Source: Actinomycetota bacterium
Lineage (GTDB): Bacteria; Actinomycetota; Actinomycetes; Nanopelagicales; Nanopelagicaceae
DNA length: 47,233 bases
Assembly: GCA_015660815.1 (NCBI GenBank)
Contig: JACSDF010000014.1
Location: 1-47,233, forward strand
Direction of reading: 5' to 3'
This document shows, one piece after another, positions 7,904-38,838 of this stretch (positions within the stretch are counted from its first letter, which is position 1; the number at the start of each line of letters is the position of its first letter). The notes below the pieces were generated by a model that saw nothing but the letters and a program-made list of their open reading frames with translations, made no database searches and was not told where the DNA came from. The translations under genes were made by a program, and so were the position numbers.

Positions 7904-9163
7904 TTAGTTCGTACCTCGTGACGATGAAATTGAGTGCAGTACTCGATAGCCAATAATGGCGACCAAAGTAGCATTGATGATTCCGTTAAAGGTGTAATCT
8001 CCGCGCGTCCATGACATATCTGAGATACCTATGATGAGTGCAGATGCGGCGATTATCAGATTAGTTGAGTTGGCGAAATCGACCTTACCCTCAATCCAAA
8101 TTCGTGCACCGAGCACGCCGATCATTCCAAATAGAGCAACTCCTACGCCGCCAAGTGCGCCAACGGGAGTAGCGCTTAACACTGCACCAAACTTAGGTGA
8201 GAGTGAAAGTCCGATAGCACCAACACCTGCAATCCAATATGCCGCCGTTGAATAAACTCGAGTAGCGGCCATGACTCCAATATTTTCGGCATATGTTGTA
8301 GTACCTGATCCACCACCGACGCCAGCAAGCGTTGTTGCAATTCCATCGGCCATCAATGCTGTTCCCATTTGATCATCTAAATTCTTGCCCGTCATGGCTG
8401 AGACTGCTTTAACGTGACCGACATTTTCGGCGATCAATACAAGAACAACAGGTAAGAATAAAATAATCGCCTTACCGTCAAATGTAGGTGAAGTAAATGT
8501 TGGAAGTGCAAACCATTTCGCTGCAGAAATACCATCGGTATTAACATCTCCCATTGCATAGGCATAGCCGTATCCAATGACGAGACCTGCAAAAATACTG
8601 ATGCGACTTAAGAAACCACGAGAGCCCGCAGCAATCAGTGCAATCGATGCAAGAGTAATAATGCCAACGGTTGGACCAGCAGCAAAATTATTTTTTGCTG
8701 CCCCTGCAAGATTTAGTCCAATAACCATTACGATTGTTCCGGTAACGATTGGTGGCAACATCCAGTTAATCCAACCGATTCCAGCTTGGCGGACTATGAG
8801 CCCAACAGCTGCCAAAATAAGACCTGTTACGACAACGCCACCAAGGGCTGCAGACATTCCACCACCGGATTTTGCCGCGGCGATAGGTGCAAGAAATGCA
8901 AAGGACGATCCCAAGTAACTTGGCACTTTATTCTTGGTGAGTGCTAAGAAAATAAGCGTTCCTACACCCGAGAAAAAGAGCGTGGTCGTTGGAGGAAAGC
9001 CAGTAATGATAGGAACGAGGAAAGTGGCACCGAACATCGCAGCGATGTGTTGAAGTCCAACGCCAATAGTGCGGGGCCAGGTAAGGCGTTCATCGGTTGA
9101 GACGACCTCGCCCGATGAAATTGATTTACCATCCCCATGAAGTTTCCATGTAAATAGAGACAT
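7904..9163 (-). CDS. NCS2-family uracil/xanthine permease
   Basis: 419 residues, strongly hydrophobic with 12 or more membrane segments. It starts with a cytosolic arm followed by GLQHIAAMFGATFLVPIITGFPP, the signature of the UraA/PbuX group. Further on it has ENVGHVKAVSAMTGKNL and GIATTLAGVGGGSGTTTYAENIG, which line the nucleobase site in UraA. It is a proton-coupled nucleobase importer; the sequence leans to uracil (AENVGHV, TTYAENIG) but xanthine cannot be excluded. A good ribosome site (GGAGG) lies before the ATG, and a structured leader of about 100 bases precedes it, suggesting regulation after transcription start. Confidence 0.9.
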   Translation of the reverse strand: MSLFTWKLHGDGKSISSGEVVSTDERLTWPRTIGVGLQHIAAMFGATFLVPIITGFPPTTTLFFSGVGTLIFLALTKNKVPSYLGSSFAFLAPIAAAKSGGGMSAALGGVVVTGLILAAVGLIVRQAGIGWINWMLPPIVTGTIVMVIGLNLAGAAKNNFAAGPTVGIITLASIALIAAGSRGFLSRISIFAGLVIGYGYAYAMGDVNTDGISAAKWFALPTFTSPTFDGKAIILFLPVVLVLIAENVGHVKAVSAMTGKNLDDQMGTALMADGIATTLAGVGGGSGTTTYAENIGVMAATRVYSTAAYWIAGVGAIGLSLSPKFGAVLSATPVGALGGVGVALFGMIGVLGARIWIEGKVDFANSTNLIIAASALIIGISDMSWTRGDYTFNGIINATLVAIIGYRVLHSISSSRGTN

Positions 9164-9184
9164 ATTTCCTCCAGTTTCAAAGGT

Positions 9185-9248
9185 CCCTTCGACGTTGAAG
9201 GGCGCTAAAACTCAGGGTACGGCGGCTCAGAGGGCTACTGAGGCGTAC
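9185..9248 (-). promoter_or_regulatory. Hairpin-rich leader of the nucleobase permease
   Basis: Read on the minus strand, two inverted repeats lie between the PadR-type operator and the permease start. The first runs 9248-9217, with outer GTAC/GTAC (9245-9248, 9217-9220) and inner CTCAG/CTGAG (9238-9242, 9226-9230). The second has perfect 6-base arms CCCTTC/GAAGGG around a 6-base loop at 9202-9185, just before the GGAGG site. Another CTGAG at 9211-9215 could compete with the first stem. No known riboswitch family was recognised; a protein-binding or attenuator leader is only a possibility. Confidence 0.4.
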
Positions 9249-9332
9249 GCAACACCCTCAAGGATGGGAATTCGAAGAGCCACGCTCATCAGGAGTTGCA
9301 GCGGCTGGAGTATCGCAATATATTACCTCTAG

Positions 9333-9351
9333 ATATATCGATTCGATATAT
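9333..9351. promoter_or_regulatory. Candidate PadR operator upstream of padR-ino1
   Basis: A perfect 9-base inverted repeat, ATATATCGA and TCGATATAT, around a single central T (9342), 31 bases before the padR-like start. Size and symmetry suit a dimeric winged-helix regulator, and the site sits where a promoter of padR-ino1 would be, so autoregulation is the simplest reading. Confidence 0.6.
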
Positions 9352-9382
9352 AAAGCGACAGTAAATCTGAGGGGTTGAAGCA

Positions 9383-9913
9383 ATGCGATCACGCAGTGAC
9401 TCCCTTGAGTTCGCGCTTTTAGGTCTTCTCTCGCAGAGCCCTCTTCATGGGTACGAGCTGCGAAAGCGTATGGGGACGATATTTGGCCCCTTTCGAGCGC
9501 TCTCATTCTCAGTTCTATACCCACAGCTGCGCAGGATGATGGAGGCTGGAGTAATCGCTGAAAGCCATGTTGAAACAACGTCGAGGCGCTCGCGAATTGT
9601 CTATGCCATTACAGATAAAGGGGCTACGAGATTTTCCGATTTAACTGAGACCGTGAGCCCAGATACATGGGAGGACGAGGGCTTTGAAATCCGCTTTGCT
9701 TTTTTCTCCCCAACATCGTCAAAGAACAGAGTAAGAATTCTTGAGGGGCGCCATCGTCGCCTTAAGGAAAAAGCAGAAATTCTGCGCGGTGAACTCGAGA
9801 AGTCACCGATCGGAATCGATAAATATCTAGAGGAGTGGCGACGTCACTCTCTGGAGTCAGCTGATCGAGAGATTGCTTGGCTGGAAGACATGATCAAAAC
9901 CGAGAGGAAATAA
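9383..9913 (+). CDS. PadR-family transcriptional regulator
   Basis: 176 residues. The N-terminal winged helix ([52 protein letters not shown]) is diagnostic of PadR. The C-terminal part (residues 100-176) is the helical dimerisation domain ending in [22 protein letters not shown] ribosome site precedes the ATG. It is one base from the ino1 start and so co-transcribed. A PadR gene directly before inositol-phosphate synthase is a conserved actinobacterial pairing, which suggests it controls inositol synthesis and itself, probably through the inverted repeat at 9333-9351. Confidence 0.92.
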
Positions 9914-32779: not shown

Positions 32780-33868
32780 ATGAAGAGTTCACCATTAAAT
32801 GACAAACACCTCGCGAGAAATGCCAAAATGGCAGATTTTGGCGGTTGGTCTATGCCCATCGAATATCCGGGTGGGGGTGTTCTTGCCGAGCATGCTGCAG
32901 TCCGTGAACGTGTGGGGCTATTTGATGTTTCGCATTTAGGAAAGGCATCAGTTGTCGGAGTTGGGGCCTTGGAGTTTCTGAACACCGTGTTTACTAATGA
33001 TTTGCATCGAATCGGCGACGGGTCGGCCCAGTACACATTGCTGTGCACTCCAGAGGGTGGCGTCATTGATGATTTAATTGCATATAGAAACTCACCTGAC
33101 GATCTCTTTTTAGTACCGAACGCTTCAAATACCACCGATGTCGTTGCTGTACTTCAATCACTCGCACCCGCTGGGATCACGGTAACAAATCTGCATAATG
33201 ATTATGCGGTCTTGGCGGTTCAAGGTCCACTAGCGGCTCAAGTTTTGCAATCACTTGGGGTCAAGACCGATATCGACTACATGGCTTTTTCTCATGTGCA
33301 GATTGGCGGCGCTAAAGTTATTCTCTGCCGAACTGGGTATACCGGCGAACTTGGCTACGAAATTTTGCCTCAAACCGTTGATGCATCGGCAGTGTGGGAC
33401 GCCTTGGCTAGCGCTATTGAAGCTGTCGGCGGCTTAGTGTGCGGCCTCGGCGCCCGCGACACGTTGCGCACTGAGATGGGCTATCCGCTACATGGGCATG
33501 AATTATCTCTTGAAATTACTCCCGTTCAGGCTAGTGCTTCATGGGCAATTGGTTGGACTAAGTCTGGATTCATTGGCAGTGAGGTATTACGTGCTGAGAA
33601 ACTTAATAAACCTGAGGTACGAAGTGTGGCCCTTAAATCCTTAGATCGCGGAATTCCGCGTGGACATATGCAGGTGAAAACTACCTCGGGGGAAGTTTTA
33701 GGTGAAGTTACTAGCGGCACTTTTTCTCCAACTCTGAAAACTGGAATTGCACTGGCACTTCTTGCATCTTCGGTCAAAGTTGGGGATCAATTAATTATTG
33801 ATGTTCGAGGACGAGAATCACATGTAGAAGTTGTCAAACTTCCCTTTGTACCTTCTCATGTTCGATAA
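32780..33868 (+). CDS. gcvT: Aminomethyltransferase, glycine cleavage T protein
   Basis: 362 residues. It transfers the one-carbon unit from the aminomethyl-lipoyl H protein to tetrahydrofolate, releasing ammonia. MADFGGWSMPIEYPGGGVLAEHAAVRERVGLFDVSHLGK is the usual N-terminal folate domain start, and CRTGYTGELGYEI and GLGARDTLRTEMGYPLHGHEL are further family motifs. The H protein depends on lipoate as well, linking it to lipA/lipB. gcvH and gcvP are not in the window. The last 35 bases overlap the convergent ECF S-component gene. Confidence 0.95.
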   Translation: MKSSPLNDKHLARNAKMADFGGWSMPIEYPGGGVLAEHAAVRERVGLFDVSHLGKASVVGVGALEFLNTVFTNDLHRIGDGSAQYTLLCTPEGGVIDDLIAYRNSPDDLFLVPNASNTTDVVAVLQSLAPAGITVTNLHNDYAVLAVQGPLAAQVLQSLGVKTDIDYMAFSHVQIGGAKVILCRTGYTGELGYEILPQTVDASAVWDALASAIEAVGGLVCGLGARDTLRTEMGYPLHGHELSLEITPVQASASWAIGWTKSGFIGSEVLRAEKLNKPEVRSVALKSLDRGIPRGHMQVKTTSGEVLGEVTSGTFSPTLKTGIALALLASSVKVGDQLIIDVRGRESHVEVVKLPFVPSHVR

Positions 33869-34652
33869 ATTCAATCGGCGTTAAAAAGGCTGCACGTACA
33901 TATGTTCGCCGCAATGCCGTTAATACAGCGTGACCGGCAAAGAGAATTAATCCAGCAGTAAATACTGCTCGGGGAATATCCCAGGCCATTGCAGTGAGAA
34001 AATGAAACGTAAAAAAATTTGAAAGATTCTCTGAAATTGGTGCACCAGCTACGAAAGATAATTGAGTTTGTGAACCAAGCGCCCAAGGCCAGAACTGTAG
34101 ATCCATCAAGATTCCAAACAACTCACTTGCCACAGCGCCAAAGACAATGAGCATTGCAATCTCGCCTTTGCCTCGAAGGCTTTTAGCTCCAGGTAGCAGA
34201 CCTGCGAGCAGACCAATCCAGGCTGCGGCAAACATTTGATAACCCAGCCATGGACCCAAGCCACCCGTTAAAAGGGCAGAGACAAAGACCGAGATCAGCC
34301 CCAGCAAGAAACCAAAGGAGGGACCAAAGACACGTGCGCTCAGGATCAGTAGAAACCACATCGGTTCAATTCCGATAGCGCCTGCACCAAGTGGTCGAAG
34401 TGCGGCGATTAATGCCGAAAGAACACCTAGCAGGGCAATAGATTTTGAATCTAAACCCGAGCCAGATATTTCAATAATTGCCAGAAGCACAGCGATTGAA
34501 ATCGCAACCCAGAAGAAGATTTGAGTTCTTGGAAGGCTCTCACCCGTGTAAAAAAATGGCCAGACAAATCCCGCCGCACTTATTAGTGATGCGATCGTTA
34601 AAACTAACGCATTGCGCCACGAGAATTTAACAATATCGCCAGTTAACATCAT
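33834..34652 (-). CDS. ECF transporter S component, probable cobalamin-type
   Basis: 272 residues with about seven to eight hydrophobic helices. VLSALIAALRPLGAGAIGIEPMWFLLILSARVFGPSFGFLLGLISVFVSALLTGGLGPWLGYQMFAAAW is the membrane-embedded substrate-binding fold of ECF S components. The start overlaps the ATPase stop by 4 bases. It is last in an operon controlled by a cobalamin riboswitch, which makes vitamin B12 or a precursor the likely ligand. It overlaps gcvT by 35 bases at its 3' end. Confidence 0.87.
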   Translation of the reverse strand: MMLTGDIVKFSWRNALVLTIASLISAAGFVWPFFYTGESLPRTQIFFWVAISIAVLLAIIEISGSGLDSKSIALLGVLSALIAALRPLGAGAIGIEPMWFLLILSARVFGPSFGFLLGLISVFVSALLTGGLGPWLGYQMFAAAWIGLLAGLLPGAKSLRGKGEIAMLIVFGAVASELFGILMDLQFWPWALGSQTQLSFVAGAPISENLSNFFTFHFLTAMAWDIPRAVFTAGLILFAGHAVLTALRRTYVRAAFLTPIEFIEHEKVQREV

Positions 34653-36259
34653 GGCGCGTTACTCTCCAAAGCCGCGACGACATCGCGCACAGTCAACCAA
34701 GGTTGCGGAGACATCACCTTTGAAACTTGTGGCGCAAAAGCCGGAGATGAGAGCAAGACTTCAATAGTTGCGCCATCAGCGACGATATCGCCATCTGCGA
34801 TAAAAACTACTCGCGTGGCAAGTTCAGCGACTAACTCTACGTCGTGTGTGGCAAGAACGACCGTGCGATTAAAAACCGTTGCGAACTCTAAAAGAATACG
34901 AGTAAGAGATTTCTTTGCCTCGTAATCTAAACCACGGGTTGGTTCATCGAGAATAAGAATCTTTGGATTTGCTGAGAGAACAATACTAAGGGCCAAACCC
35001 AGACGTTGTCCTTCAGATAAATCACGCGGGTGTGCATCTAAAGCGATGCCTGGTACAAGTTGTGCCAATAAGGAATACGTTGCACCCGGTGCAACTTCAT
35101 TATCTCTATCGGCCTGTGCGCATTCTTGTGCCACGCTTTGGGCATACAAAAGATCACTTGGCTCTTGAGGAATGTATCCAATCGTCTCTCTTCTAACTTT
35201 GCTGTGTAGGTCTTTAGAATTTATTGAGTGAACATTCACAACTCCAGTTGCTCCATCACTTACTCCTGCAATTGATCGCAGAAGCGAACTCTTACCCGCA
35301 CCATTGCGCCCCATTACTGCAACGATTTCATTGTCGAAAATGGTTGCACTTACTTCATTAAGTGCAATTGTTGTTCCGTGAACAATGCTTAGCTTCTTAA
35401 TTTCAATGACGGGATTCACACTTACAGGATCATTGAGCGGTGAACTAAGTGGTGTGTTTGCACGCATACTTTCCGTCATTCGCCGCATATCTCTGACTGA
35501 CAACCCAACTTCTTCAAGGCCAAGGGCTCTGGCCAAGTGCACAATTGGTGGCGCGATGGAGGAGATTTTCATAATCTCTTCTGGTGTCCCGATAATCGAA
35601 TTACCGTCTCCATTAATATGAAGAATTCGATCGGCAAAACCAATAACGCGCTCTAACTTATGTTCTGCGATTATGACGGTAAGGCTCAAATCATGTACTA
35701 AGCGATGAAGAATCGAGAGAACCTCTTCGGCGGCAATAGGATCAAGTGCACTCGTTGGCTCATCCAACACCAAGACTTTAGGATGCAATACAAGGGCGCT
35801 AGCAATTGCTACACGTTGTTGTTCGCCACCACTCAAAGTTGCAATTGTCCGAGCACGGAGTGGAGCTAACGAGAGTAGATCCAAAACCTCTTCAACACGT
35901 TTGCGCATCGTCTCAGGCGCAAGGTTGAGCGCCTCCATTGAAAATGCCAACTCTTCTTCCACTGTGTCGGCCACGAAACCGTTGATTGGGTTTTGTCCGA
36001 CAATTCCGATGAGATGTGCCAAACCGCCTGGTTTTACTTCGCGCGTCGATAAACCATTGACACTGATGTCACCGGCAAGAATTCCTCCAGTGTGGTGGGG
36101 AACTAAACCATTTATCAATCGAAGCAATGATGATTTACCCGATCCAGTAGCTCCGATTACTAAAACTAACTCTCCTTCGGAGATTTCCAACGTCAGATTT
36201 TCAATCACTGTTTTAGTTGAGTTTGGATAAATGAGTGAGACATTAGAAAACGTAATCAC
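34649..36259 (-). CDS. ECF transporter ATPase, two fused ABC domains
   Basis: 536 residues holding two complete ABC modules, EcfA and EcfA' in one chain. Module 1: Walker A GATGSGKSS (36-44), signature LSGGEQQRVAIASAL, Walker B VLVLDEPTSALDP. Module 2: Walker A GRNGAGKSS, signature LSEGQRLGLALSIVL, Walker B ILILDEPTRGLD. It powers vitamin uptake together with the T and S proteins encoded on either side; both junctions are 4-base overlaps. The second signature (LSEGQ) deviates a little from LSGGQ. Confidence 0.94.
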   Translation of the reverse strand: MITFSNVSLIYPNSTKTVIENLTLEISEGELVLVIGATGSGKSSLLRLINGLVPHHTGGILAGDISVNGLSTREVKPGGLAHLIGIVGQNPINGFVADTVEEELAFSMEALNLAPETMRKRVEEVLDLLSLAPLRARTIATLSGGEQQRVAIASALVLHPKVLVLDEPTSALDPIAAEEVLSILHRLVHDLSLTVIIAEHKLERVIGFADRILHINGDGNSIIGTPEEIMKISSIAPPIVHLARALGLEEVGLSVRDMRRMTESMRANTPLSSPLNDPVSVNPVIEIKKLSIVHGTTIALNEVSATIFDNEIVAVMGRNGAGKSSLLRSIAGVSDGATGVVNVHSINSKDLHSKVRRETIGYIPQEPSDLLYAQSVAQECAQADRDNEVAPGATYSLLAQLVPGIALDAHPRDLSEGQRLGLALSIVLSANPKILILDEPTRGLDYEAKKSLTRILLEFATVFNRTVVLATHDVELVAELATRVVFIADGDIVADGATIEVLLSSPAFAPQVSKVMSPQPWLTVRDVVAALESNAP

Positions 36260-37002
36260 GATAACCCCATAACGATTAGGCCAGTTGCAACAATGGCCGT
36301 GTCAACAGATTTCCACGTAATAGGCCGGTACCTGCTGCGCTTACGACTGATTCCATATCCGCGAGAATCCATAGCGGCTGCTAAATCCAACGAGCGGGCA
36401 AGGGATTCTTCTAAAAGAGGAATCGCTACTCGACGATACGAGGCAAATCCCTTTGTACTCTGCCCGCGCAAGCGTTGCGCCATTCTTATTCTAGAAAAGC
36501 TGGTTACTAACTGAGGCAAGATTGTGGTCGAAATGACAACTGAGACCCCAAACTCATACATATAGACCGGAAGTACACGTAGTAGCCGATGAGGACTCGT
36601 CAGTGAGGCCGCGGCGCCAAAAATAACGATAATTGCGCAGATGATCAGACCCTCTGAAATCACTGATGAGAGCCTTTCTAGCGTCACAGCTCCACCGATT
36701 CGAACTCCCGGCATCCATGAGGGGAGTGGAATTCGAGGAAGTGTGAAAATCGTAGTTCCCGGTATTGGTATACCAATTGTTATCGCGATAAATGTTCGGA
36801 TCAATAAAATCCATGCAGCTAATTTCAAAGTCCAGGTAAAACTTTTACCCCATGGTGCATCTTCGCGAAAAACATAAACAATTACTCCGACAACACCCAC
36901 TGAAGCGATGGCAAAAATTGGCGCATTAATACGTGCAACGCTGATTGCAACGGCGAATGACCAAATCCACCACGTCAGTGGGTGAAGCGGGGCTTTTCTC
37001 AA
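36256..37002 (-). CDS. ECF transporter T component (EcfT/CbiQ family)
   Basis: 248 residues with about five membrane helices. RMAQRLRGQSTKGFASYRRVAIPLLEESLARSLDLAAAMDSRGYG includes the two coupling-helix motifs of EcfT proteins (A-x-R-x-R-G-like ARS...AMDSRGY) that contact the ATPase grooves. It is 9 bases downstream of the secreted-protein gene and overlaps the ATPase gene by 4 bases. The scaffold subunit of the vitamin transporter in the cytoplasmic membrane. Confidence 0.92.
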   Translation of the reverse strand: MRKAPLHPLTWWIWSFAVAISVARINAPIFAIASVGVVGVIVYVFREDAPWGKSFTWTLKLAAWILLIRTFIAITIGIPIPGTTIFTLPRIPLPSWMPGVRIGGAVTLERLSSVISEGLIICAIIVIFGAAASLTSPHRLLRVLPVYMYEFGVSVVISTTILPQLVTSFSRIRMAQRLRGQSTKGFASYRRVAIPLLEESLARSLDLAAAMDSRGYGISRKRSRYRPITWKSVDTAIVATGLIVMGLS

Positions 37003-37011
37003 TTGAGGTTT

Positions 37012-37545
37012 TTACTTCTTTACAGTTAAAGCTGCTGGCGTTGATATTTCAACACCACACTCTTTAGCTGGAAAGCCATTGAGCCCACAAATGAGACCTG
37101 AACTTGCAGCACGAATCTTTACCACTTGACCCAAAACGTCGATCCCTTGTGAATCTAGAGCGGTGCGTACACACCGTGTAATTGTCTTTGCAGGTTTTTC
37201 ACCTTTGGGTGCCCATGCTTTAGAACCGAACTCAATGACTAAAGCCACTCTCTTAGTATCTGGGTCGGCCATAGTTTTGCCACAGATCGCCTTGAAGTTA
37301 GGTTTAATTTTTGGTGGAACTGATGGAACATCATCGCTGCTAAAAACAAAGGACCACCCTTCGACAGCGCCATCGGCGACATCGACAGTTGGTCCAGTCA
37401 TTGCAGTGGTCCACATAGTTGCACCTGGGGCGGCTTGAAAATAGCCCCAGTAGCGCCAACCCTTAGTCGCACTGTGGGATGAGGGAGTTATAAAAACCGA
37501 TGTAGCCAGAATGAGTAGCGTGATAAGTAAAGCTTTGATTTTCAT
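37012..37545 (-). CDS. Secreted SCO2322-like protein of the ECF operon
   Basis: 177 residues. A signal peptide (MKIKALLITLLILATSVFITPSSHSA, cleavage near residue 26) leads to a mature domain starting KGWRYWGYFQAAPGATMWT. It has EGWSFVFSSDD, FKAICG, KRVALVIEFG, TRCVRTALD and SGLICGLNGFPAKECGVEIS. This order matches the actinobacterial SCO2322 family found with ECF operons. Four cysteines could form two disulfides outside the cell. It is the first gene after the riboswitch, with GAGAGG 10 bases before the ATG. A role as extracellular binding or processing partner for cobalamin uptake is inferred only from position. Confidence 0.82.
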   Translation of the reverse strand: MKIKALLITLLILATSVFITPSSHSATKGWRYWGYFQAAPGATMWTTAMTGPTVDVADGAVEGWSFVFSSDDVPSVPPKIKPNFKAICGKTMADPDTKRVALVIEFGSKAWAPKGEKPAKTITRCVRTALDSQGIDVLGQVVKIRAASSGLICGLNGFPAKECGVEISTPAALTVKK

Positions 37546-37628
37546 TGATGTGAAGCCTCTCGAATATGAAGAGTCTCACAGGGGTAGCACCGCATAAGAG
37601 TGCAGAAATCGCACCCAAAATAAGGACC

Positions 37629-37758
37629 ACACCCCGCAAACCTCGGCGGGTGTTTGTCTCGTACGTCTTTTCATTAGGTAATCCGACTTCGCGCTTGATG
37701 CATGCGCTTTACGGTTGCGGGTCAGCGTCGGAGTTTCACCGAACTTCCCCTAATGAGA
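37629..37758 (-). promoter_or_regulatory. Cobalamin riboswitch
   Basis: On the minus strand the conserved core appears in order: GGGGAAG, GGTGAAACTCC (37740-37730), GCTGACCCGCAACCGTAA (about 37727-37710) and AGTCGGATTACCT, matching the cobalamin aptamer consensus. The closing stem P1 pairs TCATTAGG with CCTAATGA (37756-37749 and 37678-37671, 8 perfect pairs). A hairpin follows (ACACCCGC with GCGGGGTGT, 37653-37629). Its loop contains GGTTT, complementary to AAACT of the aptamer loop L5, so it is the likely P13 kissing hairpin. The regulated genes are the secreted protein and ECF T-A-S operon. No clear U-tract follows, so translational control is more likely than termination. Confidence 0.93.
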
Positions 37759-37824
37759 AAACTATTAAGTTGTGGGTGAACCAAACCACATCGCCCTGGA
37801 GTTGGCAACTGGCCGCGCAGGACT

Positions 37825-37836: not shown

Positions 37837-38838
37837 ATGGAATATCGTCGCCTTGGCAGTACCGGAATGTATGTCTCTGAAATCTCCTATGGAAACTGGA
37901 TAACTCACGGATCACAGGTTGAGGCAGAGGCGGCAATCAAATGCGTCAAAGCCGCACTCAATGAGGGGATCACAACATTTGATACCGCCGACGTGTATGC
38001 GGGCACTCGGGCCGAAGTAGTTTTAGGTAAGGCGTTAAAAGGCGTTCGCCGTGAATCCTATGAACTTTTCACAAAGGTATATTGGCCAACGGGTCCAGGC
38101 AAAAATGATCGCGGCTTATCGCGTAAACACATTATTGAATCATGTAACGCATCGCTGAAACGTTTACAGACCGACCACATCGATTTATACCAAATGCATC
38201 GTTTTGATTTTGAAACCCCACTTGAAGAATCGTTGAGCGCATTCGATGATTTAATCCGCGCGGGAAAAGTTCATTACATCGGTTTCTCTGAATGGACCGC
38301 CCCTCAGATTTCAGCGGCGCTCGAAATTCAAGATGCACTTGGCTATAACCGTTTTGTTTCTAGCCAACCTCAATACTCTGCGCTGTGGCGCGTTATTGAG
38401 GCCGAAGTTGTTCCACTCTCAATAAAAGAGGGGATAGGCCAGATTGTTTGGTCACCGATGGCTCAAGGCGTTCTCTCCGGAAAGTATGCAGCAGGCAAGA
38501 AAGCGCCAGCGGGTTCTCGCGCAACGGATAAAAAGAGTGGCGCTGGAATGATTTCGCGTTGGATGCGAGATGAAGTGCTAACCGCCGTTGCCAAGCTCGC
38601 ACCAGTTGCTAAAGAGGCTGGGATAACAATGTCTCAAATGGCTATCGCGTGGGTACTGCAAAATCCAAATGTTTCTTCAGCGATTATGGGCGCCACAAAA
38701 CCATCTCAGGTTAAGGAAAACGTTAAAGCATCTGGAGTGAAGTTAGATGCATCGACAATGAAAGCGATCGACAAAGCACTTGGCAAACTACCCGAGATGG
38801 ATCCGGCTCAGAATATAAGTCCAAATCCGCGCGCTTAG
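37837..38838 (+). CDS. Aldo/keto reductase (K+ channel beta-subunit-like)
   Basis: 333 residues, TIM-barrel AKR. The catalytic tetrad is visible: D49, Y54 (TFDTADVYAG), K80 (LFTKVYWPTG) and H121 (QMHRFD). WSPMAQGVLSGKYAAGKKAPAGSRA and SSAIMGATKPSQVKENVKASG bind NADPH. It resembles the AKR6/AKR14 branch (Kv-beta and YghZ-like proteins), which reduces small aldehydes. It is divergent from the B12 riboswitch operon and ends in a TTAG shared with the convergent DUF3043 gene. Confidence 0.93.
   Translation: MEYRRLGSTGMYVSEISYGNWITHGSQVEAEAAIKCVKAALNEGITTFDTADVYAGTRAEVVLGKALKGVRRESYELFTKVYWPTGPGKNDRGLSRKHIIESCNASLKRLQTDHIDLYQMHRFDFETPLEESLSAFDDLIRAGKVHYIGFSEWTAPQISAALEIQDALGYNRFVSSQPQYSALWRVIEAEVVPLSIKEGIGQIVWSPMAQGVLSGKYAAGKKAPAGSRATDKKSGAGMISRWMRDEVLTAVAKLAPVAKEAGITMSQMAIAWVLQNPNVSSAIMGATKPSQVKENVKASGVKLDASTMKAIDKALGKLPEMDPAQNISPNPRA

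Follow-up and report, generated by a model that had tools for sequence, protein, structure and literature searches.

Proteins of the SCO2322 family as putative circularly permuted transcobalamin-type beta domains in B12-regulated ECF operons of actinobacteria

Introduction

Why would an ECF importer that owns a membrane binding subunit need a catcher outside the cell? The question arises from the window, a 47,233-nucleotide stretch of DNA from an Actinomycetota bacterium (contig JACSDF010000014.1), in which a small, predicted secreted protein of the SCO2322 family is encoded first behind a cobalamin riboswitch. The initial annotation of this DNA called such a partner odd for an ECF system. This holds in so far as ECF-CbrT of L. 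delbrueckii, which uses a shared, group II ECF module, transports B12 without a secreted partner, according to the available part of that study (PMC5997447). It holds less well in view of Burroughs et al. 2007, where, in the portion available, secreted transcobalamin-like SLBB proteins encoded beside CbiO/CbiQ genes are predicted to scavenge B12 (PMC1796856). In that portion the clade is placed in low-GC Gram-positives, planctomycetes and euryarchaea and does not include the SCO2322 family; the word stem "permut" is absent from PMC1796856.

The association of such importers with riboswitches is itself established. An analysis of four complete acI genomes, in the part accessible to us, reports no B12 synthesis and, in each genome, an ECF module behind cobalamin riboswitches (PMC5301498), so that the riboswitch-ECF link was already known; the same part does not mention the first gene of the operon. 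No publication naming SCO2322 was found in the open-licence literature, and none on the SCO2322 family in actinobacteria among records that consisted mostly of titles and abstract beginnings.

Results

A riboswitch-controlled operon for predicted corrinoid import

The operon lies on the minus strand, which the initial annotation had not given, and begins with an AdoCbl-type cobalamin riboswitch (37622..37775; RF01482, 66.7 bits, E 3.3e-10), followed by SCO2322, T, A and S in that order, all on the same strand. The riboswitch ends 76 nt before the ATG of the SCO2322 gene (37012..37545, 177 aa). The downstream genes encode the CbiQ-type transmembrane component EcfT (36256..37002; PF02361, 36.6 bits, cut-off 25), a double ECF-type ATPase A with two ABC stretches in one chain (34649..36259; ABC_tran; 303.7 bits against TIGR04520, slightly below the cut-off of 315), and an S component predicted to be corrinoid-specific, which co-occurs with SCO2322 (33834..34652; PF12822, 34.9 bits, cut-off 30.7). 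The slot that holds this B12 cassette is bordered by two plus-strand genes, gcvT (32780..33868; TIGR00528, 322 bits, cut-off 235.85) and an aldo/keto reductase gene (37837..38838; PF00248, 242 bits, cut-off 24). An operon that supplies its own T, A, A' and S subunits is the mark of a group I ECF system, and the one in the window is predicted to encode an importer of this group for corrinoids. Comparison of the S-component profile (A3) with PDB sequences returned one designed protein at E 0.3 and no real match.

The window genome (1.59 Mb in 64 contigs, 98% complete) contains a single RF01482 match, the riboswitch of this operon. It encodes a class II ribonucleotide reductase and a PduO-type adenosyltransferase, and therefore uses B12. 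Cobalamin scarcity opens an operon controlled by a riboswitch of the AdoCbl class; a search for an expression platform near the riboswitch gave a fold z of -1.37 and simple patterns at about the level of shuffles. A second importer, of the iron/haem/B12 kind, is encoded at G000:C14:12560-14975 (= L222 3561-5976) in the order binding protein-permease-ATPase, where a FecCD permease gene and a short gene for the ATPase accompany the sole PF01497 protein of the genome. In sequence, this binding protein is similar to haem IsdE and to a PGF_1 type; BtuC gives the permease its best score, yet one below the cut-off; and no riboswitch match was found at this importer, which, judging from its sequences, may be an alternative B12 route.

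Sequence features of the SCO2322 protein

The first gene product belongs to NCBIfam NF040672 ("SCO2322 family protein"), matching over residues 26-167 at 155.6 bits (E 1e-45) against a cut-off of 85. A hydrophobic leader, recognised by eye and with an approximate boundary, spans residues 1-26 (37468..37545, minus strand), where AF2 models a helix at residues 2-18. The chain contains exactly four cysteines, at positions 88, 125, 153 and 163, all of which are conserved without exception among 53 aligned Nanopelagicales proteins and across a wider set of 12. The description first given of the locus, a SCO2322-like protein with a leader and four cysteines that stands first behind the riboswitch and before the transporter subunits, is confirmed. 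Sequence reading places a C-terminal membrane anchor in the SCO2322 proteins of several toroid-bearing relatives; it is absent in the window protein, which binding to S may keep close to the membrane.

A Pfam search of the protein gave no match up to E 0.1. In particular, Peripla_BP_2 (PF01497) was not found in it, and DUF4430 (PF14478) was found neither in it nor in the whole window genome. Two of the roles first suggested, the stripping of carrier proteins of their corrinoid and the processing of the lower ligand, gained nothing from these searches, as no enzyme family was matched in NCBIfam or Pfam.

Evidence for a circular permutation

Some distant relatives in the phylum match the SCO2322 family profile with its halves reversed. 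The family profile was split in two, and ORFs in which both halves score were counted: the N-C order occurs in 55 ORFs (SCO2322 proteins, duplicate loci included) and the C-N order in 8 ORFs from 4 genomes (L073-L076 and their copies). A profile grown solely from reversed-order loci, hereafter canonical, none of them SCO2322, matched 42 of 42 SCO2322 loci in two swapped pieces, mostly with canonical positions ~74-129 ahead of ~4-75.

In the window protein, the first half (residues 27-83; 37297..37467, minus strand) corresponds to the C-terminal part of the canonical beta domain, covering profile positions 75-129, and carries the motif YW...W...DG.VEGW.F. The second half (residues 84-170; 37036..37296, minus strand) corresponds to the N-terminal part, positions 5-75, with the motif C..KR.ALVI.FG...C...L..GLICGLNG.P...CG. 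The native protein scores 32.2 bits for the first piece and 23.3 bits for the second. Rotation, with the mature chain opened between residues 83 and 84 and its former ends linked, gave a single 55.1-bit match spanning positions 5-129 of 131, while the best of 500 shuffles reached 7.8 bits. The SCO2322 family profile behaved likewise against 17 canonical proteins, scoring 86.0 (65 columns) in native and 160.4 (118 columns) in rotated form, and 0 of 120 shuffles scored above 21.3. Against the profile of the phage relatives described below, rotation lengthened the match from 36 to 102 columns with a score of 23.1 both ways, and shuffles reached 20.4 at most.

Because the swapped two-piece matches fuse into one match on rotation, SCO2322 is read as a circularly permuted beta domain of the transcobalamin/intrinsic-factor type. 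The two-piece and rotated matches give it the homology that defines the transcobalamin-like SLBB clade, with which it also shares a genomic setting tied to B12 and to genes of the CbiO/CbiQ type. The strand order of that clade is S1-S2-helix-hairpin-S3-S4-S5, while SCO2322 has S3..S5 and then S1-S2-helix-hairpin; the sequences therefore point to a permuted derivative and not to a plain member. Homology and permutation are both found by computation. Mapped on the S-component tree, the permutation needs three label changes with weak support, which is still compatible with a single origin.

The best of five AF2 models of the window protein has a pLDDT of 82.4, and the other four range from 77.6 to 54.2. 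The model contains strands at residues 28-38, 61-69, 97-105 and 122-129, a helix at 134-139, and a short pair at 144-146/152-155. After rotation the order becomes strand-strand-helix-hairpin-strand-strand, as expected for a rotated beta domain and in agreement with the order stated for the transcobalamin type in the part of PMC1949818 that was available. Foldseek found no structural match for the model (best E 0.86) and VIA-align returned one row, 9k3e, at Z 2.7; both are sequential aligners, which handle permutations poorly, and the absence of a match in itself excludes nothing. For the permuted form, the evidence on fold is indirect and comes from sequence and from the unpermuted relative.

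An unpermuted relative is modelled with a transcobalamin-like fold

A freshwater phage relative (profile A9) matches the 17 canonical proteins (A1) at E 6.4e-14. Its predicted model is middling (pLDDT 62.3, pTM 0.58). The top 15 VIA-align rows comprise 3u7z (DUF4430), transcobalamins, intrinsic factor and haptocorrin, at Z 7.4-8.0 and rmsd 3.1-5.9 over 85-96 residues; a Z below 8 may reflect a common arrangement, and the whole top of the ranking is one family. The SLBB proteins WzaB (6.9) and Rnf (6.6) come next, followed at Z 6.3 and below by toxin-translocation and ubiquitin-like domains. In the Foldseek ranking, the human transcobalamin beta domain 5no0 came third (E 0.18), behind two staphylococcal enterotoxins, all of its matches being non-significant (E 0.14 and worse). 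As far as a middling model can indicate, the unpermuted relative folds like the transcobalamin beta domain. In animal transcobalamin-type proteins, B12 is gripped by both halves. A beta domain alone can hold B12, since the title of PDB entry 5np4 describes the beta domain of human transcobalamin, on its own, with cyanocobalamin.

The sequence link of the canonical relatives to DUF4430 appears weak. Pfam detected DUF4430 in 1 of 31 canonical relatives, at E 0.017 and beside chance families, and gave no match to it in the A7 consensus, in nine single canonical relatives or in five actinobacterial genomes with these operons or proteins. With hhalign, canonical profiles aligned to DUF4430 proteins from plasmids at probabilities of 0.4-23%; the alignment is collinear, with a score of 22.3 that 0 of 300 shuffles reach (mean 9.0, sd 2.1, maximum 16.7), and the score of rotated SCO2322 against DUF4430 was reached by 0 of 120 shuffles. 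The canonical profile A1 had no match among PDB sequences, and that of A7 was one antibody, set aside as chance.

SCO2322 travels with the S component and the riboswitch

One genome scan yielded 541 stretches encoding SCO2322 relatives, and the best 80 of the 541 named SCO2322 loci (58-93% identity) were compared. The closest listed relative is a Candidatus Planktophila MAG at 93% identity, in a collection that may omit records very near the window. The order SCO-T-A-S is seen in 66 of the 80 loci, i.e. in every locus where all four genes were found; the remaining 14 are truncated at contig ends, and the genes they retain follow that order. A covariance model places a riboswitch on the same strand and just upstream of SCO2322 in 76 of 80, and in the other four (L097, L128, L152, L160) the SCO2322 match begins less than 100 nt from a contig end. 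By this computation the B12-regulated operon is conserved.

Across 296 genomes of the order, NF040672 was found in 179 and the S component in 178: both in 172, SCO2322 alone in 7, S alone in 6 and neither in 111 (Fisher p 2.5e-64, with genomes treated as independent of kinship and many of them incomplete). SCO2322 therefore tracks S (172 genomes of 296 with both) as well as the riboswitch (76/80), which is the co-occurrence check proposed at the outset, and its homologues do not lie mostly away from B12 loci. Together with the apparent beta-domain ancestry, these counts favour the B12 link and the option of corrinoid capture that had been suggested. They also bear on the idea that SCO2322 is an unrelated small secreted protein that happens to move with the operon. 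A window model free of Pfam and structural matches would suit such a passenger, yet the permutation signal, the SCO-T-A-S order in 66/66 four-gene loci and the joint presence and absence with S contradict it strongly, and we regard it as highly improbable.

In a phylum scan, 54 of 396 genomes had an NF040672 match at E 1e-3 or better, 13 of them above the cut-off, the window genome included. The beta protein stands before T in 20/20 phylum loci, which were chosen by their NF040672 match. A riboswitch at gathering score accompanies 7 of these first 20 loci, so B12 regulation is not general in the data for distant relatives. The S component was found in 138 of the 396 genomes, and 26 loci were picked by it; 11 of these end too soon and 15 are testable. 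A canonical beta protein lies beside the operon in 13 of the 15, divergently oriented in L176 and L189. At L188 (toroid only) and L190 (no toroid), S is present and a beta protein was not detected.

The alpha-toroid partner is present in relatives

Canonical beta proteins are often encoded beside, or fused to, an alpha/alpha toroid, and many bacterial canonical relatives thus have the toroid + beta architecture of transcobalamin and intrinsic factor. The toroid is directly upstream in 11/11 loci of a large-genome family (f3) and was not detected at the canonical loci L074, L076, L078, L171-L173, L175 and L192. SQHop_cyclase_C scores above its cut-off in L067 and L075 and below it in others. 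PDB matches to the toroid profile were squalene-hopene cyclases and toroids akin to them, with no transcobalamin among the matches listed. Two consecutive toroid + beta pairs precede T-A-S at L195 (4182-8453, minus strand), with three cobalamin riboswitch matches in 10 kb. Within the order, 4 of 296 genomes encode the toroid; these 4 all belong to genus g241, and in each the toroid gene adjoins SCO2322. A profile search did not find a toroid in the 98% complete window genome. Since g241 genomes carry the toroid next to SCO2322, the window lineage has probably lost this half.

One chromosomal slot holds several B12 cassettes

The slot between gcvT and the aldo/keto reductase gene carries different cassettes in related genomes. 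The window and L168 contain SCO-T-A-S, L161 (genus g241) toroid-SCO-T-A-S, L166 a BtuFCD-type set (PF01497, PF01032, ABC) and L164 a lone canonical beta protein (9162-9686, minus strand), and at L162 the aldo/keto reductase gene is accompanied by a BtuF-type binding protein running up to the contig end. Each of these six cassettes stands behind a cobalamin riboswitch, and our computation shows that in related genera a BtuFCD-type importer replaces the ECF cassette in the same slot. Among six riboswitch loci examined outside SCO2322 operons (L162-L167), the first gene is of BtuF type in four (L162, L163, L165, L166; NCBIfam BtuF matches below cut-off in the last three), the lone beta gene in L164 and metE in L167. 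L165, from the window's own genus, is without the flanking genes of the slot in the available stretch, and L163 has a partial flank. In L072, from family f5 of the same class, the reductase gene lies beside SCO-T-A-S with a partial gcvT match beyond. At L167 (6147-8563, plus strand), a second cobalamin riboswitch of genome G666 precedes B12-independent metE (TIGR01371, above cut-off).

The lone beta protein of L164 recurs in its genus, g245. It is present in 13/13 genomes tested (L164 and 12 more), which were sampled for a riboswitch match and no SCO2322, and the riboswitch lies ~100 nt upstream in 12/12 with a listed riboswitch position. An S component of the SCO2322-operon kind was found in 0 of the 13. 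These genomes weigh on another explanation, in which SCO2322 acts outside the cell as a lid or assembly partner that stabilises or gates S and does not itself bind free corrinoid. SCO2322 overlaps or nearly abuts T, with a gap of -45 to 26 nt in 79/80 loci with both genes in the stretch, as would fit a stoichiometric partner; the search of the window genome gave no alpha half, and the accessible part of PMC5997447 has B12 bound by the S component alone in ECF-CbrT. We nevertheless consider a lid unlikely, as the g245 protein occurs in every tested genome, linked to a riboswitch in 12, with no S component of this kind found in any of them, and a BtuF-type binding protein fills the same slot elsewhere.

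Relatives on phage contigs and plasmids

Ten IMG/VR loci (L209, L210, L211-L218), several of them mutual copies, are freshwater phage contigs with lone beta genes whose products are relatives of the g245 protein. By eye, six of the ten (L213-L218) look like lipoproteins and the other four have a membrane-type leader. L215 has a terminase match (PHROGs), and its beta protein had no match at E 0.01 among 50,697 deposited phage records. In L209/L210 (L209 2394-5477) the beta gene is directly behind genes for a B12-dependent ribonucleotide reductase and a PduO adenosyltransferase. The reductase is of the adenosylcobalamin-dependent kind (TIGR02505, 336 bits, slightly below the cut-off of 340), and the adenosyltransferase scores 182.5 bits with TIGR00636 (cut-off 108). 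In L211 a reductase gene is 4.5 kb from the beta gene, and none was seen in the available stretches of the other phage loci. On Lactobacillales plasmids, a DUF4430 protein is encoded directly before an ECF S component (L201, L204), and plasmid stretches L202, L204 and L205 carry genes for a B12-dependent or related reductase together with pduO.

Discussion

These observations suggest that SCO2322 is probably a secreted permuted beta domain that captures corrinoid for the ECF importer. When cobalamin is scarce, the riboswitch would open the operon; SCO2322 would be exported and bind cobalamin or cobinamide on the external side of the membrane, and would either raise the local corrinoid concentration or pass the corrinoid to the S component, after which the T and A subunits would drive import. 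In many relatives a toroid protein may complete a two-part clamp like that of intrinsic factor, a half that the window lineage would have shed. We infer both the binding of corrinoid by SCO2322 and its hand-over to the S component. Several findings count against capture: no toroid was found in the window genome, and the animal proteins use both halves; ECF-CbrT needs no soluble partner, in the available text of PMC5997447; SCO2322 occurs without S in 7 genomes and S without SCO2322 in 6; and 2 of the 15 testable S-picked loci (L188, L190) are without a beta protein.

The captured molecule might instead be another corrinoid-related ligand, such as cobinamide, a lower-ligand base, cobalt or haem, and not complete cobalamin. 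SLBB domains bind varied ligands, according to the part of PMC1796856 at hand, and the DUF4430 structure 3u7z is titled a putative metal-binding protein. The riboswitch, the exchange with BtuFCD-type importers and the nrdJ and pduO genes that neighbour related proteins on plasmids and one phage contig speak for cobalamin, and we give this alternative little credence, somewhat less than the lid.

Capture of corrinoid by SCO2322 would have parallels in several known systems. Like the transcobalamin-like SLBB clade, often found with an alpha/alpha toroid, SCO2322 is a predicted secreted beta-grasp protein of CbiO/CbiQ operons, but it appears permuted, has its toroid on a separate gene or none that was found, and escapes Pfam DUF4430. 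The B12-scavenging secreted SLBB kind was already known, in the available portion of PMC1796856; the permuted actinobacterial form would be new, and open-licence publications on circular permutation and transcobalamin, as far as their accessible text goes, concern other proteins. Human transcobalamin, intrinsic factor and haptocorrin (5no0, 5np4, 2bb5, 2pmv, 4kki) resemble the modelled fold of the unpermuted relative, and their partner toroid recurs in many bacterial relatives; SCO2322 differs from them in strand order, in its four conserved cysteines and in that no toroid was found in the window genome. The Lactobacillales nrdJ-pduO-DUF4430-ECF S cassette of plasmid L204 likewise has a small secreted beta-type protein before S in a B12 setting, but lacks dedicated T and A genes beside it, has the canonical strand order and is detected by Pfam DUF4430. 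BtuF of BtuCDF has a counterpart in the BtuF-type protein that occupies the same riboswitch-controlled slot in related genera; it has the Peripla_BP_2 fold, which was not matched in SCO2322, and serves another importer type.

A broader reading, which we hold tentatively and at somewhat less than even chances, is that the beta domain alone is a portable B12-scavenging module, permuted in one actinobacterial lineage and lone in a related genus, whose phage copies raise B12 for DNA synthesis during infection. In the accessible part of PMC10547690, marine viruses with B12-dependent reductases are suggested to regulate or enhance B12 uptake or production; among the open-licence literature, as far as its text was available, no publication on such a phage beta protein was found. 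The phage copies are thus a concrete candidate for the viral enhancement of B12 uptake suggested there. Within one chromosomal slot, the alpha + beta, beta with ECF, lone beta and BtuFCD-type cassettes amount to natural experiments. For the curated SCO2322 family, so far without a function and represented here by 541 relative-encoding stretches, the capture of corrinoid outside the cell would be a testable one.
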